DNA from: a virus | DNA length: 62,534 bases | Virus record (IMG/VR): IMGVR_UViG_3300042987_002787 | Span: 1-62,534 of that record | Direction: 5' to 3' (one strand) | In this document: one piece after another, positions 287-57,440 of the stretch | Layout: each line of letters opens with the position of its first letter | Position numbering within the stretch: position 1 is the stretch's first letter | Notes under the pieces: generated by a model | Told to the model about the DNA's origin: nothing | Seen by the model: only the letters and a program-made list of their open reading frames with translations | The model's database searches: none | Position numbers and translations under genes: made by a program

Positions 287-1009
287 TTATTTATTATCCA
301 GGCAAACCAGCTCAGAAACTTCTCTAATTAGATCTGGATGAATTAAAGTTAAAAATGTTGCTACGTGTTTATCGTTGGTAAAAAAGTTAGCTCCCCAAAT
401 CCAATTGTGTGGTTTCTCGAGATTGTCTCTCGAGTGATCGCTTATTCTTACTAGATCACCAAGACTGTCTAAGTAAGCCAAAACTTGGTGTCTAATTTCA
501 GTATCAAATTGCTTTTCTCTCAACCAAACACGATATCGATATTTTGGCGGTTTCTTTACCAAAACTATATGTTTGTCTAATAGTGCCTTTATTTCTTCGT
601 TAGCAGGACCTGTGATAGATGTTAAGTTATTTCTATAATCTTGATCCATAGATTTAGCCACCGACTGTAAAACTAACTCATCTGTGGCGTATACTGATAC
701 TTTTGGTTCTTCTGTACGAATTTTAACATCAGGGTATTCGTAGTACAAATCTTTAAGGCTATGTAAAAAGCCAATGTCTGCATGTTGCAAATATTCAGCT
801 AGTTGTTTGTTCCACCATGAACCTTGGCGTCTGTAATTTCTTACCCAATTTCTACGCCGTTCTATGTCATCGGAAACATTGTCGCAACGAATACTTTTAC
901 AACCTGGAGCATATACGTCCAATCTGAAATAGTATTCGTTGTAAAACTGCTTGGTTGATGAAAGTACTTCGATGCTAGGAGAGAGACTCTTCCAAAACAA
1001 TGTATCCAT
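287..1009 (-). CDS. Hypothetical protein, 240 aa
   Basis: I start it at the internal ATG (MDTLFWKSLSPSIEVLSS), which overlaps the clpA-like 3' end by 35 nt; an ATG 69 nt further upstream lies deeper inside clpA. The protein is soluble and rich in aromatic and charged residues, with a YRVWLREKQFD segment and a C-terminal WIWGANFFTNDKHVATFL segment. No domain is recognised. The long overlap suggests translation coupled to the unfoldase. Confidence 0.65.
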   Translation of the reverse strand: MDTLFWKSLSPSIEVLSSTKQFYNEYYFRLDVYAPGCKSIRCDNVSDDIERRRNWVRNYRRQGSWWNKQLAEYLQHADIGFLHSLKDLYYEYPDVKIRTEEPKVSVYATDELVLQSVAKSMDQDYRNNLTSITGPANEEIKALLDKHIVLVKKPPKYRYRVWLREKQFDTEIRHQVLAYLDSLGDLVRISDHSRDNLEKPHNWIWGANFFTNDKHVATFLTLIHPDLIREVSELVCLDNK

Positions 1010-3263
1010 TAGTGTCAATTCTGTATGTGGAATCGGTTGACGAAATAGGCAAGAAAGAAAATTCTTTATTATAATCAACTACTATTATACAGCCTGCGCT
1101 AATGTTGTCAAACAAAATAAGTTTACTCAAAGGAACTTTTATTAATTCATTTATTTTTCGTTGTAAAGGTCTGGCACCTAGTTTTTTGTCGAATCCTTGA
1201 GCAATAAGCTCATCTACCGCTGCTTCAGTTAAACGTATTCTTAGCTGTTTATCAATCAACAGATCATTTATATCAGTAATAAATTTACCTACAATTTTAC
1301 GCATGCTCAATTCATTTAGTTTGTTAAATTTAATTACACCATCTAATCTATTTCTAAATTCTGGAGCAAAATAATTTTTTATTGCCTTGTCATCTTCATC
1401 TGTTTTTTCAAAATTTTGAGTGAAGCCTATTGTATTTTTTTCATTGTCAGCAGCACCTAAATTTGAGGTTAGGATAATTATCGCATTTCTACAACTGGCT
1501 TTTTTACCATTACTGCTGCTTACAATGCCTTCATCCATCATACTTAACAATATATTGCTAACATCAGAATGTGCTTTTTCGATTTCGTCCATTAAAATAA
1601 TACAATTAGGGTTTTTTTCAATGTCGCTAATCAAAAGTCCACCGCCTAAATTACCGTCATCATATCCTACATAACCAGGCGGAGCGCCAATCAGTTTAGC
1701 AATTGCATGTTTCTCCTGATATTCGCTCATGTCATATCTCAACAGTTTCATTCCTAGAGATTCTGACAGTAATTTTGCCAATTCGGTTTTACCTGTTCCA
1801 GTGGGTCCTGAAAACAAAAAACTGCCAATTGGTTTGTTTATTGACTTAAGACCTGCACGACTTACATAAATTTTTTCCAAAACACTGTCCACTGCTCGAT
1901 CCTGACCAAACAGTTTATCTTTAATTTGCTCATCCAAATTGGTTAGAACCTGTGTTTGGGTTACATTGCCAATTTGGTCTTCTGGGATCTTGGTCATGTT
2001 GCTGACAGCAGAAATTACGTCTGCTTTAGTAACTTGCCAGTTCTCTAAATTGTTATACTTGATTTTTAGTTTTGCGCAGCAAGCATCGATTAAATCAATT
2101 GCTTTGTCAGGTAGTTTTTTATCAGTTTGGAAACGCACACTTAAATCTACAGCTGATTCAATTGCTTCATCTGTAACTACACCATCATGAAACTTTTCAA
2201 AATGCCCACGTAAACCAAATAAAATTTCCTTAGCAACTTTTACAGAGGGTTCATCAATAGTCACACGTTGAAAACGTCGCATCAAGGCTCGATCTTTCTC
2301 GAAGCTTTGAGTGTATTCTTCCCATGTGGTTGATGCAATCACTTTAATTTTACCTTTACTCAAAGCCGGTTTGATCATGTTTGAAAAATCTACACTGCTT
2401 TGACTTCCTGCTCCTGCACCACGCATTTGATGTGCTTCGTCAATGAACAAAATTGTTTTGTCCTTGGAGTTTAGTGCGTTAATGATTTCATGAATTTTTT
2501 CTTCAAAGTCTCCACGATATTTTGAGCCAGCTAACAAGCTGCCAATATCTAAATTGTAAACTGTATAGTTTTTCAAATAATCTGGGACATATTCATTTAC
2601 TATAGACAGAGCTAGTCCTTCGGCAATAGCAGTTTTACCAACACCAGGATCGCCAATCATTAACACGTTACATTTGTTTCTTCTTGCCAAGATTTCAATT
2701 ATTTCGCCAGTTTCTATTTCTCTACCGATTACAGGATCAATTTTATTGTTAATGGCTAGTTTGTTAAGATTAGTACAGTAGTGCTCAAGAATTTTATCAG
2801 CCTGAGCTGAATTTACAATGGATTTGTTTGATTCTGTTTTGTACAGTTTATTATATTGTTCAATGAGTTTACCACGTTCAAGTTGATATTTTACAATAAA
2901 ATAATGTGCATAACTGTTTGTTTCGGAATTTATGCTAAGAAACAAATCCATGATTTGAACATGAGTTCGTCCGCTAAACAACACTTGTGTAAACGCTCTG
3001 TTAAATGTGCGTTCGAGTGCATGCGTCTTTTTTGGCTCAATGTTTTCTGCTACTAGATAGGTTTGATTTTCTATGTAGGCGGCAAGATCTGCATCTAGAC
3101 CTTCTATATCAACACCAAAGTTAGTTAAAAACTCTCTAAATGGATTAAATCTAATCATCGAGAGAAAAACATGCTCTAATGTAACATACTCGTGACTATA
3201 ACTTTTTGCAATGTCTATAGCTTCTGAAACAATTAAATCAATTTCTGGATTAGTTTGTAACAT
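975..3263 (-). CDS. clpA: ClpA-like AAA+ unfoldase
   Basis: The 762 aa match ClpA in length and layout. A Clp N-domain (about 1-140) precedes AAA+ domain 1 (Walker A GDPGVGKT 204-211, Walker B ILFIDEAH 271-278) and AAA+ domain 2 (Walker A GPTGTGKT 486-493, Walker B IILMDEIEKA 555-564). An IGF tripeptide at 612-614 sits where ClpA has its ClpP-docking IGL loop. Known role: a ring unfoldase that feeds substrates to ClpP. Inference: it docks on host ClpP, since no clpP is visible here. A late box AATAAATA ends 5 nt before the ATG, so the mRNA may be leaderless. It lies downstream of dnaJ. Confidence 0.93.
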   Translation of the reverse strand: MLQTNPEIDLIVSEAIDIAKSYSHEYVTLEHVFLSMIRFNPFREFLTNFGVDIEGLDADLAAYIENQTYLVAENIEPKKTHALERTFNRAFTQVLFSGRTHVQIMDLFLSINSETNSYAHYFIVKYQLERGKLIEQYNKLYKTESNKSIVNSAQADKILEHYCTNLNKLAINNKIDPVIGREIETGEIIEILARRNKCNVLMIGDPGVGKTAIAEGLALSIVNEYVPDYLKNYTVYNLDIGSLLAGSKYRGDFEEKIHEIINALNSKDKTILFIDEAHQMRGAGAGSQSSVDFSNMIKPALSKGKIKVIASTTWEEYTQSFEKDRALMRRFQRVTIDEPSVKVAKEILFGLRGHFEKFHDGVVTDEAIESAVDLSVRFQTDKKLPDKAIDLIDACCAKLKIKYNNLENWQVTKADVISAVSNMTKIPEDQIGNVTQTQVLTNLDEQIKDKLFGQDRAVDSVLEKIYVSRAGLKSINKPIGSFLFSGPTGTGKTELAKLLSESLGMKLLRYDMSEYQEKHAIAKLIGAPPGYVGYDDGNLGGGLLISDIEKNPNCIILMDEIEKAHSDVSNILLSMMDEGIVSSSNGKKASCRNAIIILTSNLGAADNEKNTIGFTQNFEKTDEDDKAIKNYFAPEFRNRLDGVIKFNKLNELSMRKIVGKFITDINDLLIDKQLRIRLTEAAVDELIAQGFDKKLGARPLQRKINELIKVPLSKLILFDNISAGCIIVVDYNKEFSFLPISSTDSTYRIDTNGYIVLEESLS

Positions 3264-32055: not shown

Positions 32056-33216
32056 TTATTTAATAGCAAGCCATTCTAACAATGAGTCGGCAAATATGTT
32101 TGCATTTAGGTCGCTACGCCTTGCTACAAACTCTACCAAGAAACTTCGCAAAGATTCTACTAATTTGGGATCTGGAATTGTTACGATTGATTGTAAAATT
32201 CTTTCACGGTCTACGTCTGTAATCCGACTAGTATTAACCTGTTCAAGCCTGTGTCTTATACAATCTTTGCTAGCAGGATCAAGCACATAAGGTGCCAAGA
32301 AGCCCGGGTGATACACAAATTGATATACGAAAGGAATATCATTAAAATAGTCAACAAAATCAAAAAATGACAACAAAGTCAAATTGGTCAAAGTGCAGTT
32401 GAATTTGAAGTTGATTTTACGCTGTTGCATGATTTTGACTTTGTTTGCAAAATCTTGCCACGCGGCACCATATCTATTAAATTCGTAATTTTCTTTTATT
32501 GATTCTGCACTAACAGTAAATGTTATGTTTGTGTGGTGCTGTATGCTGTCCAAAACCTTTAAAAATCTTGATTGTGATACTCCCAGTCCTGTAAATATTT
32601 CTATGGTTTTGACATGACTGAAAAGATCAATGTTTTTTTCTAGGTTGGTATCTAATAACGGTTCGCCACCAGTGATAATCAAGTGTGTGTCGCTGTTGGT
32701 TATCTTAACTGTTTCATCAACCAATAATTGATATCGTTTACTTTTTTTTAGAACAGGTTGACTTATTTTTGTTAATAAAACATCCCTAGGGGATAATTGG
32801 TATCTGCTGTTTGTAAAATGCGGAATCTGATACTGTCCATTTTTTAAAATGTCGCGACGCCATGAACTACTATATTCTTTTGTGCAATAAGAACAGGTCA
32901 AATTACAATCGCTTGTGGATGTAAATTCAATCATGGTGGGCAGAGTGTAAACATCAAAGTGTGTTTTTTCTATACCGTTTTGATACATTCTTGGACTTAT
33001 TGCATTGTTGTCTTCTGCTGTCCAACAATTTTGTTCGCAACTGGCATTTCTCTCATTGCGTAACATCATGTTTCGTTCACGTACATTGATTTCAGTGTTA
33101 AACAGTTGTCCGGTGTTAGTACTAACCCATTCAAAGTCGATAGGATTAGGAGCCGCGGCATGACAATTGTATGTTGTATTTGATTCGGCATCAATTTTGA
33201 GATACCGAAACTTCAT
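32056..33216 (-). CDS. Radical SAM protein, twitch type
   Basis: 386 aa from MKFRYLKIDAESNTTYNCHA; an upstream ATG at 33249 is less likely. The 4Fe-4S/SAM motif is CNLTCSYC, preceded by a Cys-containing head (NASCEQNCWTAEDNN). GGEPLLDTNLEKN is the conserved GGEPL element. Similar proteins occur in T4-like marine phages with unknown substrates. A second radical SAM gene of different type lies at 42817. Confidence 0.87.
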   Translation of the reverse strand: MKFRYLKIDAESNTTYNCHAAAPNPIDFEWVSTNTGQLFNTEINVRERNMMLRNERNASCEQNCWTAEDNNAISPRMYQNGIEKTHFDVYTLPTMIEFTSTSDCNLTCSYCTKEYSSSWRRDILKNGQYQIPHFTNSRYQLSPRDVLLTKISQPVLKKSKRYQLLVDETVKITNSDTHLIITGGEPLLDTNLEKNIDLFSHVKTIEIFTGLGVSQSRFLKVLDSIQHHTNITFTVSAESIKENYEFNRYGAAWQDFANKVKIMQQRKINFKFNCTLTNLTLLSFFDFVDYFNDIPFVYQFVYHPGFLAPYVLDPASKDCIRHRLEQVNTSRITDVDRERILQSIVTIPDPKLVESLRSFLVEFVARRSDLNANIFADSLLEWLAIK

Positions 33217-33232
33217 TGAGCAGTAATAACTT

Positions 33233-33526
33233 CTATCGCTCACTGTCATCTTGGTGTAATCGATTTTGAAAAAATTTCTTCTCCTGTACCGTAGGTTCCT
33301 TGAACCATTTCCTTGGATTACCGCACATGTAACATCTAGGATCCCCGCAGTTGAAGATGTGTTTTTTATGATTTCTATGAGGCTGTGTTAAATATCGCCA
33401 CTTGTTCATTCCGCTGCTAAGTTTATGATATCCATAATTTTTAGCTAGTTGCACCTGCTTTTCGATTGCTACTTCATCTGCATATCTGCGACCGCTGTTT
33501 TTAATTTTATCGTTTTCATTTGACAT
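33233..33526 (-). CDS. Zinc-site phage protein
   Basis: 97 aa. The centre FNCGDPRCYMCGNPRKWFKE has three Cys in a CxxxxCxxC cluster. The basic, Tyr-rich N-terminus and the end VQEKKFFQNRLHQDD are typical of a phage family of unknown function. It is directly upstream of the radical SAM gene and overlaps its longest possible start. Confidence 0.72.
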   Translation of the reverse strand: MSNENDKIKNSGRRYADEVAIEKQVQLAKNYGYHKLSSGMNKWRYLTQPHRNHKKHIFNCGDPRCYMCGNPRKWFKEPTVQEKKFFQNRLHQDDSER

Positions 33527-42254: not shown

Positions 42255-42391
42255 CCATATTGAAACACACTCCCAAGGGGCTGTCATTAACCCACTTGTA
42301 ACTTTGTACAACCTGTCGGGTAGCTAGTTCCGACTCTTGTACTCACCGTGAAGTTGGCACGGCAATGACAGAAATGTGCTTCAATATGGTG
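42253..42391 (-). ncRNA. Long-stem structured RNA candidate C
   Basis: A 17-bp terminal stem (42253-42269 with 42375-42391; one G-U) whose 5' strand includes the 3' end and CCA of tRNA-Leu(TAG). An inner stem CTGTCATT/AATGACAG and hairpins CCGTG/CACGG and GTCGG/CCGAC within GTACAA/TTGTAC follow. The stem motif GAAGCACA/TGTGTTTC is shared with the 41648 element. Confidence 0.48.
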
Positions 42392-42816: not shown

Positions 42817-43950
42817 ATGGCAAATACAAGTAATTACTGTGCTTTACCTTTTAGAGGTATGCAAATATGGACCGACGGATCTTTAAAACCTTGTTGTATG
42901 TACAATCAAGATTTGCATGTTGGTAAAATTTACAATATAAACGAATACAATGAATGGTGGTCTAACGGACTCACAACATTACGAAATAATTTTATAGAAC
43001 AAAAACCTCCGGCAAGTTGTTCGCTTTGTTTTAACAAAACTTTTCAAAATTCAGGAGTGCGTGTAAATGTTAATAACTGGATGGTTAATAATCAAGTTGA
43101 TTTTACTATAAGTGAAACTCCTGAACATATTGATATAACATTCGGAAATGTCTGCAACTTAAAATGTATAATGTGTAGTTCTTTTTCTAGTAGTAAAATT
43201 GAAGCCGAGTATCAACAACACAAGCAAAAATACAACTCAATAGGCATTATTCATCCTGCCATGCCTAAATTAAACAAATGGTGGGAAGATTCAAAAATTT
43301 TAGAGCAAGTATTGCACATAATTTCTAAAGCCAAATACATAAACTTTTCGGGCGGAGAACCGTTATTGACCCCACAAATAGTTGATATGTTGAAAGTAAC
43401 TCCTAAAAATTGTCAAGTTGAAATAAACACCAATTTAACAAAACTTACCGACGAACATATTGATTGTTTAAGGAAATTTGATCTAGCTAGAATAAGTATT
43501 AGCTTAGATGGAGTAGGTCCTCATCATGAATATGTTCGTTATGATTCCAATTGGAGCGAAATAGAAAATAATATTAATAAACTATTTGGCGCCAATATAA
43601 AAAATTTAGAAATCGCTTTTAGTTACATTTTACAACATACATCAATTTATACCTTTCCGAGTTTTTGGAATTATATGAAAGATTTTACTAATAGAATTAG
43701 AATATCCGAAGTTGTTCCTAACACTCACAAAGATAATCTAATGACCATTAACTCTGCTCATCCAACAGATGTATCAAAATTTCAACAGTGGCTTATTCAT
43801 AATCCTAACAAATATTCCAACATTCTAGAAACTTGGATAGACAACTATAAATTTGACCTACAATCTCACAATGAATTTAAACAATATATGTCAACTATCG
43901 ATCAAATTCGTGGATGTGATTTTGTTAAAACTTTCAATCCAAGTTGGTAA
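42817..43950 (+). CDS. Radical SAM protein with SPASM-like head
   Basis: 377 aa. The head CALPFRGMQIWTDGSLKPCC resembles the Cys-rich auxiliary segment of SPASM/twitch proteins. The SAM/4Fe-4S motif is CNLKCIMC, GGEPLLTPQIVD follows, and ISISLDGVGPHHEYVR is the conserved mid-barrel element. Substrate unknown. It is a plus-strand island inside a minus-strand tRNA array. Confidence 0.87.
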   Translation: MANTSNYCALPFRGMQIWTDGSLKPCCMYNQDLHVGKIYNINEYNEWWSNGLTTLRNNFIEQKPPASCSLCFNKTFQNSGVRVNVNNWMVNNQVDFTISETPEHIDITFGNVCNLKCIMCSSFSSSKIEAEYQQHKQKYNSIGIIHPAMPKLNKWWEDSKILEQVLHIISKAKYINFSGGEPLLTPQIVDMLKVTPKNCQVEINTNLTKLTDEHIDCLRKFDLARISISLDGVGPHHEYVRYDSNWSEIENNINKLFGANIKNLEIAFSYILQHTSIYTFPSFWNYMKDFTNRIRISEVVPNTHKDNLMTINSAHPTDVSKFQQWLIHNPNKYSNILETWIDNYKFDLQSHNEFKQYMSTIDQIRGCDFVKTFNPSW

Positions 43951-52791: not shown

Positions 52792-54201
52792 TTAGAAACT
52801 TAATTGACTTCTAAACAGAATAGCACGATCGCCGTTCACACGACTGCCTGAACTACCAACAGGCGCATCGAACTTGGTATCAACATAGTTTACCATAAAT
52901 CTTAGATTGTCAGTACAGAACCAAGTGATACCGTATGTCATAGCAGTAGCACGATTTGTTTTGCCAGCCGCTACTACAATAGGACCGGCGTCAAACTCAC
53001 TCATACGTACACCCACTTGCCATGCACCACGACCACCTTTGTCGATAGGATTGTTTGGCTTTATCCAACCAAACGCACCATCTTTGTATGCGTGACTTTC
53101 ACCTGTCAAATTATAAACCGCTTGTACATAATAACCTTTGATTTCTTGATCATTACCTGTGGCAGGATCATATTTAAATTCAAACTGCTCACCTTGTAGT
53201 TTTAAAGCATTGTAAGCAAATGCGGCTTCAAGTCCTTGGCGTGTGCGTGATGTAGTTCCGGTGAGTGCCGGACCCACAAACCAATTTGATTGTGAACGGG
53301 CTTCAGTGCGACCACTTGCGGGTGTAACACCGCCTTTGATATCACCCATACTATATGCTGCACCTAAGTGTGCCACATACGCTTTACTGCCAGTGACTTC
53401 GGCAATGTTTGTTGTTACACGACCAATGTAGTCAAAACTGTCATTGGCAGCATCTTTGTTTGCTTTACCACGACTGATAGCCAGCGCATATGTCAATCCT
53501 GGTTTTGGCACACCATGTAACATGAAACCAGTCTCTTTTGCCGGGATTAATTCAGAATCATTTTGACCAATAAGACTGCGTTCCATAAAGTCTAGATTAT
53601 TTGAACTAGTCAATTGTTCTAGGCTGAATGGCATCTTAAACAAACCCAACTGAAACTGCATTTCTGGATTAGCAGCATAATTAACCCACATTTCATCTGC
53701 TGTGGTTGATGTAGAACTGAAACCATCACCTGCACCAAAGTTTGCTAACAATTGATACTTAAAGTCTTTGGCAAATTGACCACGAACACCAAATCTTGCA
53801 CGACGAACCTCTGCTAAGTTTTGATACGAATCTGTGGTTTGGCCGACACTGTAATCCGGTGAGTAGTGTCTATAGTCCATGTGAATTCGACCCGTAAACT
53901 GGGCAGTATTGTTCCCGTCTCGAGATTTGAGACCGATTCCGGATTCTGTGACTGATCCGTCGTTGATTCTGGCTTGTCGGTATTTGTTTGATTCGCTAAC
54001 ATCTTTGTCGATTCTTTGTTCTGCGAATTTTTTGTTTTCCGCTTTTTCTTCGTGTTCTTGCACTTTAACATCATATTCCTTTTGTGTCAAGATACCTTTA
54101 TCGCGTAAGATATTTAGAGTATCAATGTATTCATCTGCATAAGCAGGTATACTAAATGCCAAGGAAACAGCCAGTGCAATTTTTGTAAATGTTTTCATCA
54201 T
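52792..54201 (-). CDS. Phosphate-selective porin (OprP/OprO-like)
   Basis: 469 aa from MMKTFTKIALAVSLAFSIPA; the frame opens 5 codons earlier. Signal peptide (cut near AYA-DE), then a helical linker with a coiled coil, then beta strands typical of porin O/P (TAQFTGRIHMDYRHYSPDYS, VRRARFGVRGQF, FQLGLFKMPFSLEQLTSSN). It ends in Phe (LFRSQLSF), the signal for outer-membrane insertion. Role: phosphate or polyphosphate diffusion channel. It follows pstS. Confidence 0.9.
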   Translation of the reverse strand: MMKTFTKIALAVSLAFSIPAYADEYIDTLNILRDKGILTQKEYDVKVQEHEEKAENKKFAEQRIDKDVSESNKYRQARINDGSVTESGIGLKSRDGNNTAQFTGRIHMDYRHYSPDYSVGQTTDSYQNLAEVRRARFGVRGQFAKDFKYQLLANFGAGDGFSSTSTTADEMWVNYAANPEMQFQLGLFKMPFSLEQLTSSNNLDFMERSLIGQNDSELIPAKETGFMLHGVPKPGLTYALAISRGKANKDAANDSFDYIGRVTTNIAEVTGSKAYVAHLGAAYSMGDIKGGVTPASGRTEARSQSNWFVGPALTGTTSRTRQGLEAAFAYNALKLQGEQFEFKYDPATGNDQEIKGYYVQAVYNLTGESHAYKDGAFGWIKPNNPIDKGGRGAWQVGVRMSEFDAGPIVVAAGKTNRATAMTYGITWFCTDNLRFMVNYVDTKFDAPVGSSGSRVNGDRAILFRSQLSF

Positions 54202-54206
54202 AGTCC

Positions 54207-55232
54207 TTATTTCCAAATTGCGTTACCGTCTGGACCTTTGAAGTCCTTTTTCCAATTTTCCTGTACTAATTTGATTACATCAGCTGGCATGTGGACATAT
54301 TCTAGTTCTGTTGACATTTGACCACCATTTTTGTAGGCCCAATCAAAGAATTTTAGTACAGCACGACCTGTCAATGCATCAGCTTGTTGTTTGTGCATTA
54401 GAATGAAACTAGCACCCGTTGCTGGCCATGAATCTCGACCTGTTTGCCAAGTTAGTAACAAATACATACCTGGAGCATTTGCCCAATCAGCACCTGCTGC
54501 GGCTGCTTTAAATGTAGTGTCATCTGGTAGTACAAAATTACCATCGCGATTCTTTAACGCTGCATAAGGAATTTTGTTTTTCTTAGCATAGGCATATTCC
54601 ACATAGCCAAATGCACCCTTTAATCTTTGCACTTGTGCTGCTACACCTTCATTACCTTTGCCGCCTACGCCTACTGGCCACTTAACTGCTGTGCCCTCTC
54701 CTACAGTCTTTTGAAAGTCTGCGTTAGCTTTGCCTAAAAAGTTTGTCCATACAAAGGTTGTACCGGATCCATCTGCACGATGAACCACTGTGATATTCAT
54801 TGCAGGCAAGGTTACCCCTGGATTAAGTTCCGCGATAGCCTTGTCATTCCATTTAGTAATCTTACCTAGATGAATGTTGGCGATTACATCTGGAGTGAGT
54901 CTTAGTTTACCAGATTCAACACCATCAAGATTGAATACTGGTACTACACCACCAATAATTGCTGGGAACTGCACTAGACCTTCTTTGTCTAATTCTTCTT
55001 TCTTGAGTGGCATATCACTGGCACCAAAGTCAACCGTCTTTGCTTTAATTTGACGAATGCCGCCGCCTGAACCAATTGATTGATAATTTAGACCAATGCC
55101 AGTTTGTGCTTTGTAGGCCTCTGCCCACTTAGCGTAAATAGGAAATGGGAATGTTGCTCCTGCTCCTGTAAATTCTGCTGCTGTAGCAGACACCGCTAGT
55201 GTAGCAAATAGGATTGCTAAAAGTTTTTTCAT
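54207..55232 (-). CDS. pstS: Periplasmic phosphate-binding protein PstS
   Basis: 341 aa from MKKLLAILFATLAVSATAAE, with signal peptide. Phosphate-site blocks are present: FTGAGATFPFPIYAKW, SIGSGGGIRQI, FGASDMPL, and HRADGSGTTFVWTNFL. It delivers phosphate to the host PstCAB transporter, which the window lacks. A PHO-box-like element precedes it. Known as an auxiliary gene in marine phages. Confidence 0.95.
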   Translation of the reverse strand: MKKLLAILFATLAVSATAAEFTGAGATFPFPIYAKWAEAYKAQTGIGLNYQSIGSGGGIRQIKAKTVDFGASDMPLKKEELDKEGLVQFPAIIGGVVPVFNLDGVESGKLRLTPDVIANIHLGKITKWNDKAIAELNPGVTLPAMNITVVHRADGSGTTFVWTNFLGKANADFQKTVGEGTAVKWPVGVGGKGNEGVAAQVQRLKGAFGYVEYAYAKKNKIPYAALKNRDGNFVLPDDTTFKAAAAGADWANAPGMYLLLTWQTGRDSWPATGASFILMHKQQADALTGRAVLKFFDWAYKNGGQMSTELEYVHMPADVIKLVQENWKKDFKGPDGNAIWK

Positions 55233-55263
55233 ACTGTAATCTCCATTAAATGTGCATCGCACA

Positions 55264-55302
55264 ATAATATTTAAACACACTAAGATTACAATTCCGTTAC
55301 AA
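55264..55302 (-). promoter_or_regulatory. PHO box and -10 of pstS
   Basis: Two 11-bp direct repeats (TTGTAACGGAA, TTGTAATCTTA), 11 nt, then TATTAT. This matches the PhoB layout (tandem TGTMA-type repeats in place of the -35, about 10-11 nt before the -10). Host PhoB would turn the operon on at low phosphate. Confidence 0.68.
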
Positions 55303-55332
55303 AACACTGTTTCTATTAAAATATTTTGCCAT

Positions 55333-57119: not shown

Positions 57120-57440
57120 ACGCTTTGTAATCAAAACCAGCCACTTCTGTTACCGAGCAGGCTGGGCCATCTCTGAGTCTAGGTTTAGCTTAAGCAGCTA
57201 AACGAACCTCAAACAGCTCATCATTGGCTGCATTTGTTGTTTTGCTTGATTTACAGTCATCGCCTACTGTGTTGTCCATATCCTTACTCATTGCCCTGTC
57301 GAAACCAAATTCAGGCCCATCAAAAGTATATTATGCCACGCTCTGAACCTGGACTCTTAGTAATATACTTTTGGTGGACCTGCCCGGGGTCGAACCGGGG
57401 TCCAGAACACCTTTCAATCAACTTCATACAACAATTTAAA
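57120..57440 (-). ncRNA. ssrA: Circularly permuted tmRNA
   Basis: The 3' acceptor half comes first on the minus strand: T arm CCCGG-TTCGACC-CCGGG (57399-57383), CAGGTCC, A, CCA (57372). A 13-bp inverted repeat (57361-57373 with 57321-57333) follows as a spacer hairpin. Then comes the 5' half: GGGCCTG at 57318 and GGTTTCGACAGGG. GGGCCTG pairs with CAGGTCC and gives G3-U70, the Ala mark. The tag (57231-57190) reads AANDELFEVRLAA and stop. Ends of the pieces are approximate. Processing must remove the spacer to give a two-piece RNA. Confidence 0.9.

Follow-up and report, generated by a model that had tools for sequence, protein, structure and literature searches.

Genes for tmRNA (ssrA) have been described in phages on several occasions. 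Earlier phage ssrA genes were listed in one report (PMC4131195), huge phages with both tmRNA and SmpB were described in another (PMC7162821), and 79 phage tmRNA sequences were counted in the study in which the Rfam family RF04321 was built (PMC11915505). PMC9004378 reports a two-piece tmRNA in phage Melnitz and 53 two-piece tmRNAs in phage genomes, mostly aquatic. Because of these reports, the circularly permuted tmRNA gene analyzed here, which lies in a linear virus record of 62,534 bp from IMG/VR (here, the window, analyzed over its full length), is of a known kind. The new part is its spacer: the sequence separating the two halves of the gene belongs to a set of hairpins that phages place between their tRNA genes.

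Prevalence of permuted tmRNA genes and their tags

At least 120 viral contigs fit a strict permuted-gene pattern, defined as a T arm, a gap of 65 to 95 nt, and GGTTTCGACNGGG. ARAGORN gave 118 permuted tmRNA tags among the matches listed; 75 of the 118 have 10 residues, 14 have 13 residues, and 24 have 18 to 33 residues, a few of these 24 being probably misread frames. Since so many viral contigs have the pattern and 14/118 listed tags share the length of the window tag, neither the gene nor its 13-residue tag is exceptional, and uniqueness of the tag was rejected. The initial annotation had considered a phage-borne permuted tmRNA notable as such and its tag unusually long; neither view is supported. 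Very long tags of 23 to 33 residues, for example ANADTFDFSAMSFTGNTVRGAANESRFALAA, occur in viral permuted tmRNAs of contigs L015, L038, L045, L051, L067, L088, L099, L108, L120, L153, and others; they are conserved in amino acids between contigs, with synonymous differences in the DNA. Among the isolate phages of INPHARED, the window tmRNA has only a 65-bp weak match, in Xanthomonas phage X1, and neither its neighborhood nor the linker described below has a match.

A complete permuted tmRNA gene of the betaproteobacterial type

The minus strand of the window carries, from position 57,433 to position 57,130, a complete circularly permuted beta-type tmRNA gene, which bears out the first reading of this locus. 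ARAGORN calls a permuted tmRNA (tmRNA*) at c[57099,57464] with the tag AANDELFEVRLAA. A covariance search (cmscan against Rfam), proposed in the initial annotation as a check, gave matches above the cut-off with both permuted models, namely 126.3 bits for RF04321 (tmRNA_permuted; cut-off 47; E value, 2.6e-24) and 105 bits for RF01850 (beta_tmRNA; cut-off 84; E value, 6.3e-31), and both models draw the H2/P2 helix. The refuting outcome named in that annotation, no H2 helix together with no covariance match, therefore did not occur. The folding z score of the precursor is -2.8, and promoter and terminator scans near the tmRNA gave nothing above shuffled sequences.

The acceptor (3') piece is encoded first, at 57372 to 57433, upstream of the 5' half. 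It comprises one strand of P2, the T arm CCCGG-UUCGACC-CCGGG (57399 to 57383), and CAGGUCC (57382 to 57376), followed by the discriminator A and an encoded CCA. The coding piece begins at 57,318 with GGGCCUG (57318 to 57312) and continues as GGUUUCGACAGGG; its 5' end (57291 to 57318) includes GGTTTCGACAGGG at 57306 to 57294. The two halves form a 7-bp acceptor stem with the G3-U70 alanine mark, which is present in the window as well as in 119/124 distinct viral sequences, and acceptor positions 4 to 6 covary among the relatives of the window tmRNA. Thus, the order and the alanine mark noted at the outset are both present, on the minus strand.

The segment leading from the tRNA-like domain to the tag (57232 to 57290) contains, according to the RF04321 and RF01850 alignments, the P2 strand ACAACA and a CAGU/ACUG hairpin; the latter is the clear first stem of a putative pre-tag pseudoknot, of which only this stem is drawn. 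The tag frame at 57190 to 57231 reads GCA GCC AAT GAT GAG CTG TTT GAG GTT CGT TTA GCT GCT TAA and encodes AANDELFEVRLAA; its resume codon and stop are conserved with those of a phage contig, L122. In the 3' part of the coding piece (57130 to 57189), a GUUUAGC/GCUAAAC stem surrounds the stop codon, and one H-type pseudoknot can be drawn by inspection after the tag (CAGAG/CUCGG with one mismatch and CAGCC/GGCUG), a type of structure to which the Rfam models give no score.

The spacer is a covarying helix

The intervening sequence (IVS) occupies 53 nt at 57319 to 57371, on the minus strand like the rest of the gene. Its arms (57373 to 57361 and 57333 to 57321) form 13 bp, including the CA of CCA, and are followed by the last bases before G1, a UGAU joint; they enclose a 29-nt loop, ACTAAGAGTCCAGGTTCAGAGCGTGGCAT (57333 to 57361). 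This is the 13-bp inverted repeat that had initially been seen bridging the acceptor strands, and it exceeds what chance would give. Across 124 distinct viral pre-tmRNAs, the CCA is followed directly by a helix that stops 4 nt before G1; pairing over 12 positions reaches 88%, compared with 40 to 54% when the offset is changed, and a single position can show as many as six pair types. In 108/124 of these tmRNAs, UGAU or UAAU immediately precedes G1. Because the helix covaries throughout the family, the inverted repeat of the window is a real, selected feature, and a chance origin of the repeat was rejected. Bacterial beta tmRNAs of Azoarcus, Thauera, and Dechloromonas have a similar spacer helix.

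The same loop separates tRNA genes in phage arrays

The core of the IVS loop, ACTAAGAGTCCAGGTTCAGAGC, which comprises its first 22 nt, recurs without change in 52 other viral contigs, which makes 54 places when the window is counted, mostly in tRNA arrays. In all 15 copies with a tRNA directly upstream, as called by ARAGORN, the core starts exactly 14 nt after the tRNA 3' end. Many copies end 23 to 24 nt before the next tRNA, while the neighbors of the remaining copies are not called as tRNAs by ARAGORN; the core also serves as the spacer of other tmRNAs. The 43 distinct copies share a covarying 17-bp linker stem (CCAUAU... / ...AUAUGG), and the searched core is followed by 7 nt that hardly vary. 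Because the search used an exact 22-mer, identity within the core is partly built in, and only the flanks and the stem give independent evidence of conservation. The spacer of the window has what marks these linkers: the 29-nt loop, a covarying stem, and a position between a CCA end and the 5' end of the next RNA. At least two other IVS loop classes (L061 and L088) also occur as linkers outside tmRNA IVSs. As counterevidence, the window tmRNA itself lies 12 kb outside the tRNA array, and the window holds only this one copy of its linker loop.

Stems anchored at CCA ends are a more general trait of the fetched loci: at least 15 of 17 pairs can be formed from the CCA in 60 of 767 CCA-ending tRNAs, compared with 10 of 767 random starts. 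The tRNA array of the window has a linker-type hairpin of its own at 42255 to 42389 (minus strand), in which CCATATTGAAGCACATT and AGTGTGTTTCAATATGG form 17/17 pairs from the CCA of a tRNA-Leu and close a 101-nt structured loop. A search of Rfam at E<=5 in a linker-rich stretch detected no linker family, only tRNAs and one antisense match below threshold; in the tRNA array of the window, only tRNAs were detected at E<=1. A literature search found no description of phage tRNA-array linkers.

Long, near-perfect stems, often anchored at a CCA and enclosing structured loops of 29 to 200 nt, recur in tRNA arrays (42389 to 42255 and 41746 to 41644 on the minus strand of the window; L247 to L296). 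Some of these loops contain T-arm-like sequence, such as GGCGGTTCGAATCCCC within 41746 to 41644. Lacking Rfam matches, the loops on these long stems are possible unannotated RNAs.

Spacer ORFs and probable exchange of tags

L122 and other phages have long IVSs of 167 to 223 nt. Of 27 distinct long IVSs, 20 have an open reading frame (ORF) that starts at most 15 nt from the CCA and stops 1 or 12 to 13 nt before the tmRNA 5' end, each placement having a p value of 0.003 to 0.007 against dinucleotide shuffles; in six others, the ORF continues into the coding piece. The ORFs (L122:829-1023 on the minus strand and those of 26 other distinct long IVSs in L141 to L187) have 50 to 68 codons and are often preceded by an AAGGA-type ribosome site. 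Their products belong to many unrelated families, with dN/dS values of 0.13 to 0.74, based on few changes, in the testable pairs; a PHROGs search with ten of them gave nothing convincing. The 53-nt IVS of the window has no ORF.

Comparison of the window with its relatives reveals mosaic ancestry. The IVS is identical at 52/53 positions (98%) to that of a 355-kb contig, G002/L067, the tag of which has 33 residues and is unrelated. With L122, the tag DNA agrees at 41/42 positions; identity falls to 69% in the pre-tag segment and to 74% in the acceptor piece, and the IVSs are unrelated. In the viral set, 24 IVS clusters have two or more members, and in 17 of them the tags are of more than one kind. 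Judged from these sequences, the simplest reading is that the tag was replaced by one crossover near the IVS. A permuted gene encodes its tag in the downstream half, so that a single crossover at this place can swap the tag while the acceptor half is kept.

As an alternative, the hairpin could be distributed across phage RNA genes as a mobile element, a recombination element, or a decoy for nucleases, and not as a processing signal. The identical core in differing surroundings, the near identity of the spacers in two genes with unrelated tags, and the small ORFs that fill the same slot in other phages can all be read in this way. Against it stand the strict spacing to tRNA ends (14 nt upstream and often 23 to 24 nt downstream), a stem that covaries while the loop is kept, and the retention of the UGAU/UAAU joint before G1. 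We therefore consider it a somewhat unlikely account of the spacer.

Phage context and a ClpA-like unfoldase

The window encodes 24 tRNAs according to ARAGORN and has phage-type matches to PhoH, a T4-type clamp loader, a split DNA polymerase, an endolysin, and a tail fiber. Two proteins with CxxxCxxC-like motifs, encoded near or inside the tRNA array (32056 to 33249 on the minus strand and 42817 to 43950 on the plus strand), look, by sequence alone, like radical-SAM enzymes. Near the tmRNA, at 52792 to 55307 (minus strand), are genes for phosphate uptake, encoding a PstS-like phosphate-binding protein and then a phosphate-selective porin (PF07396).

A gene at 975 to 3263 (minus strand) encodes a ClpA-like AAA+ unfoldase of 762 aa, which aligns to residues 5 to 737 of Escherichia coli ClpA and keeps the IG-F motif at the position of the ClpP-docking (IGF) loop. 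The same ClpA, with 45 to 65% identity, is encoded in four jumbo-phage contigs of 355 to 383 kb that also have permuted tmRNAs, and one of them, G002/L067, shares its gene order with the window in the region of PstS, the tmRNA, and the genes at 60 kb. Given the shared ClpA and this synteny, the window is probably a fragment of a jumbo phage. No SmpB gene was found in the window or in five related contigs, an absence that means little because the record is a 62.5-kb fragment.

The tmRNA had been described as lying next to the phage's own ClpA; a full-length ClpA-like unfoldase is indeed encoded, and it is a conceivable tmRNA partner, but the two genes are 54 kb apart. It might be supposed that the phage tmRNA competes with that of the host and reprograms host proteolysis, the tag being handled differently, for example by phage ClpA with host ClpP, so that proteins are recycled or spared. 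The preserved IGF loop, the presence of ClpA homologues in the four jumbo contigs with permuted tmRNAs, and the diversity of the phage tags, which reach 33 aa and are unlike one-piece host tags, are in line with this idea. In E. coli, ssrA tags are recognized through the terminal LAA by ClpX and through the AANDE-aromatic element by SspB. The window tag keeps an AANDE-L/F start and a terminal LAA, so that ordinary degradation is expected, and the L122 contig (a fragment) carries the same tag with no ClpA match. Together with the distance between the genes, this makes reprogramming unlikely; a special role of phage ClpA is possible but unsupported.

Origin of the gene and the host

A tree was built from 162 mature tmRNAs after removal of the IVS and the tag. 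In it, the window tmRNA joins that of phage L122 with an SH-aLRT support of 97%, and the two sit among 99 rows, 95 of them viral and the other four permuted tmRNAs of Herbaspirillum. As this was a quick tree and the end branch of the window is long (0.63), weight should be placed only on the pairing with L122. The tag AANDELFEVRLAA is present in none of the bacterial genome contigs searched.

The PstS of the phage and that of G153, a genome of the Burkholderiales (the order of Herbaspirillum), share 76% identity. G153 and nearly all other genomes with a close PstS carry one-piece tmRNA genes, the tags of which mostly have 10 residues, and only 4 of 150 sampled Burkholderiales genomes have a match above the RF01850 cut-off. 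The PstS similarity hints that the host may belong to the Burkholderiales; if it does, the tmRNA form of the phage differs from that of its host, most of this group being one-piece. A recent origin from the host was rejected on the grounds that the nearest relative is viral and the tag is absent from the bacterial genomes searched. The suggestion that the gene came from a past host accordingly finds no backing in its grouping within a broad viral assemblage or in the mostly one-piece tmRNAs of the Burkholderiales with the closest PstS.

The permuted tmRNAs of Herbaspirillum (L132, L134, L137, and L138) nest in the viral part of the tree. One of the Herbaspirillum genomes, G009, also has a normal one-piece tmRNA, and for this reason the permuted copy may be phage derived.

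Phages do pick up tmRNA gene fragments, a process discussed in PMC9004378, and the gene could in principle be a passively captured or decaying host gene with no function in the phage. Against this, the tag and every helix are preserved, compensatory changes are seen, the tag is more conserved than its flanks, the lineage is broadly viral while hosts with the closest PstS are one-piece, and the gene is syntenic in a 355-kb jumbo phage. Passive capture is thus very improbable. Least credible of all is a decoy resembling tmRNA that would tie up SmpB or ribosomes and so block trans-translation in the host, a role proposed for the tag-less tmRNA of mycobacteriophage DS6A: inhibition by TLD-only RNA is on record (PMC4131195), but the window gene has a resume site, a tag, and a stop codon, all conserved with L122.

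Proposed maturation and function

We consider it probable that the locus encodes a functional two-piece tmRNA of the betaproteobacterial type, the spacer of which is a linker hairpin excised by host nucleases, and that this RNA tags stalled products via the host machinery. The transcript would contain, in this order, the acceptor piece, the hairpin spacer, and the coding piece, with the acceptor stem predicted to run through an ACCA/UGAU joint into the spacer stem. Host RNase P and tRNA 3'-end nucleases may cut the spacer out in the same way as a tRNA linker, leaving two base-paired pieces; the tmRNA halves would then be released like neighboring tRNAs of an array. The product could be charged by the host alanyl-tRNA synthetase through G3-U70 and, together with host SmpB, might rescue stalled ribosomes during infection by adding AANDELFEVRLAA, possibly to the benefit of the phage. 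Because the tag keeps AANDE-L/F and LAA, the tagged products should enter the host ClpXP/SspB route.

More tentatively, and with somewhat more doubt than confidence, we suggest that uncultured jumbo phages and other large phages have modular RNA arrays, in which tRNAs, structured RNAs of unknown kind, and tmRNA halves are set apart by one repertoire of covarying linkers absent from Rfam. The halves would be exchangeable cassettes with tags swapped between phages, the spacer slot may hold a small translated gene, and the window tmRNA would be one such mosaic. If true, the modular arrays would offer a plausible way for the permuted tmRNA to mature and a rationale for the persistence of permutation in phages. 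A spacer that is also a tRNA-array linker is an RNA element open to test, and it bears on both the release of the two pieces and the diversity of tags, which would be swapped separately from the remainder of the gene. Likewise, linkers may flag unannotated structured RNAs in phage tRNA arrays.

Comparison with known systems

The one-piece tmRNAs of mycobacteriophages and the tmRNAs of Bacillus phage G and huge phages (PMC4131195 and PMC7162821) are, like that of the window, phage-encoded rescue RNAs, often found among many tRNAs. Their genes have the standard form or a form that is unspecified, however, and some huge phages encode SmpB (PMC7162821), whereas none was found in the window. The two-piece tmRNAs of the methylophage Melnitz and other aquatic phages (PMC9004378) are closer, being likewise phage-borne, permuted, and of a proteobacterial type, and the accessible text mentions no phage SmpB partner. 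According to the same text, the Melnitz tmRNA is of the alphaproteobacterial/SAR11 type with a glutamine riboswitch, whereas that of the window is of the beta type with a linker spacer.

The betaproteobacterial permuted tmRNA (RF01850/RF04321) has the same gene order, the P2 and acceptor helices, the T arm, the resume region, a hairpin and putative pseudoknot after the tag, and a spacer with a terminal helix. The window tmRNA differs from it in three respects: (i) the tag has 13 residues, with EVR between ANDELF and LAA, (ii) the spacer loop is that of a phage tRNA-array linker, and (iii) the sequence groups with phage and not with bacterial tmRNAs. Finally, the inter-tRNA linkers of phages share with the window spacer the 29-nt loop, the CCA-anchored stem, and the fixed spacing; the tmRNA has a shorter stem, and its ACCA lies opposite UGAU, where the linkers have a pairing AUGG.
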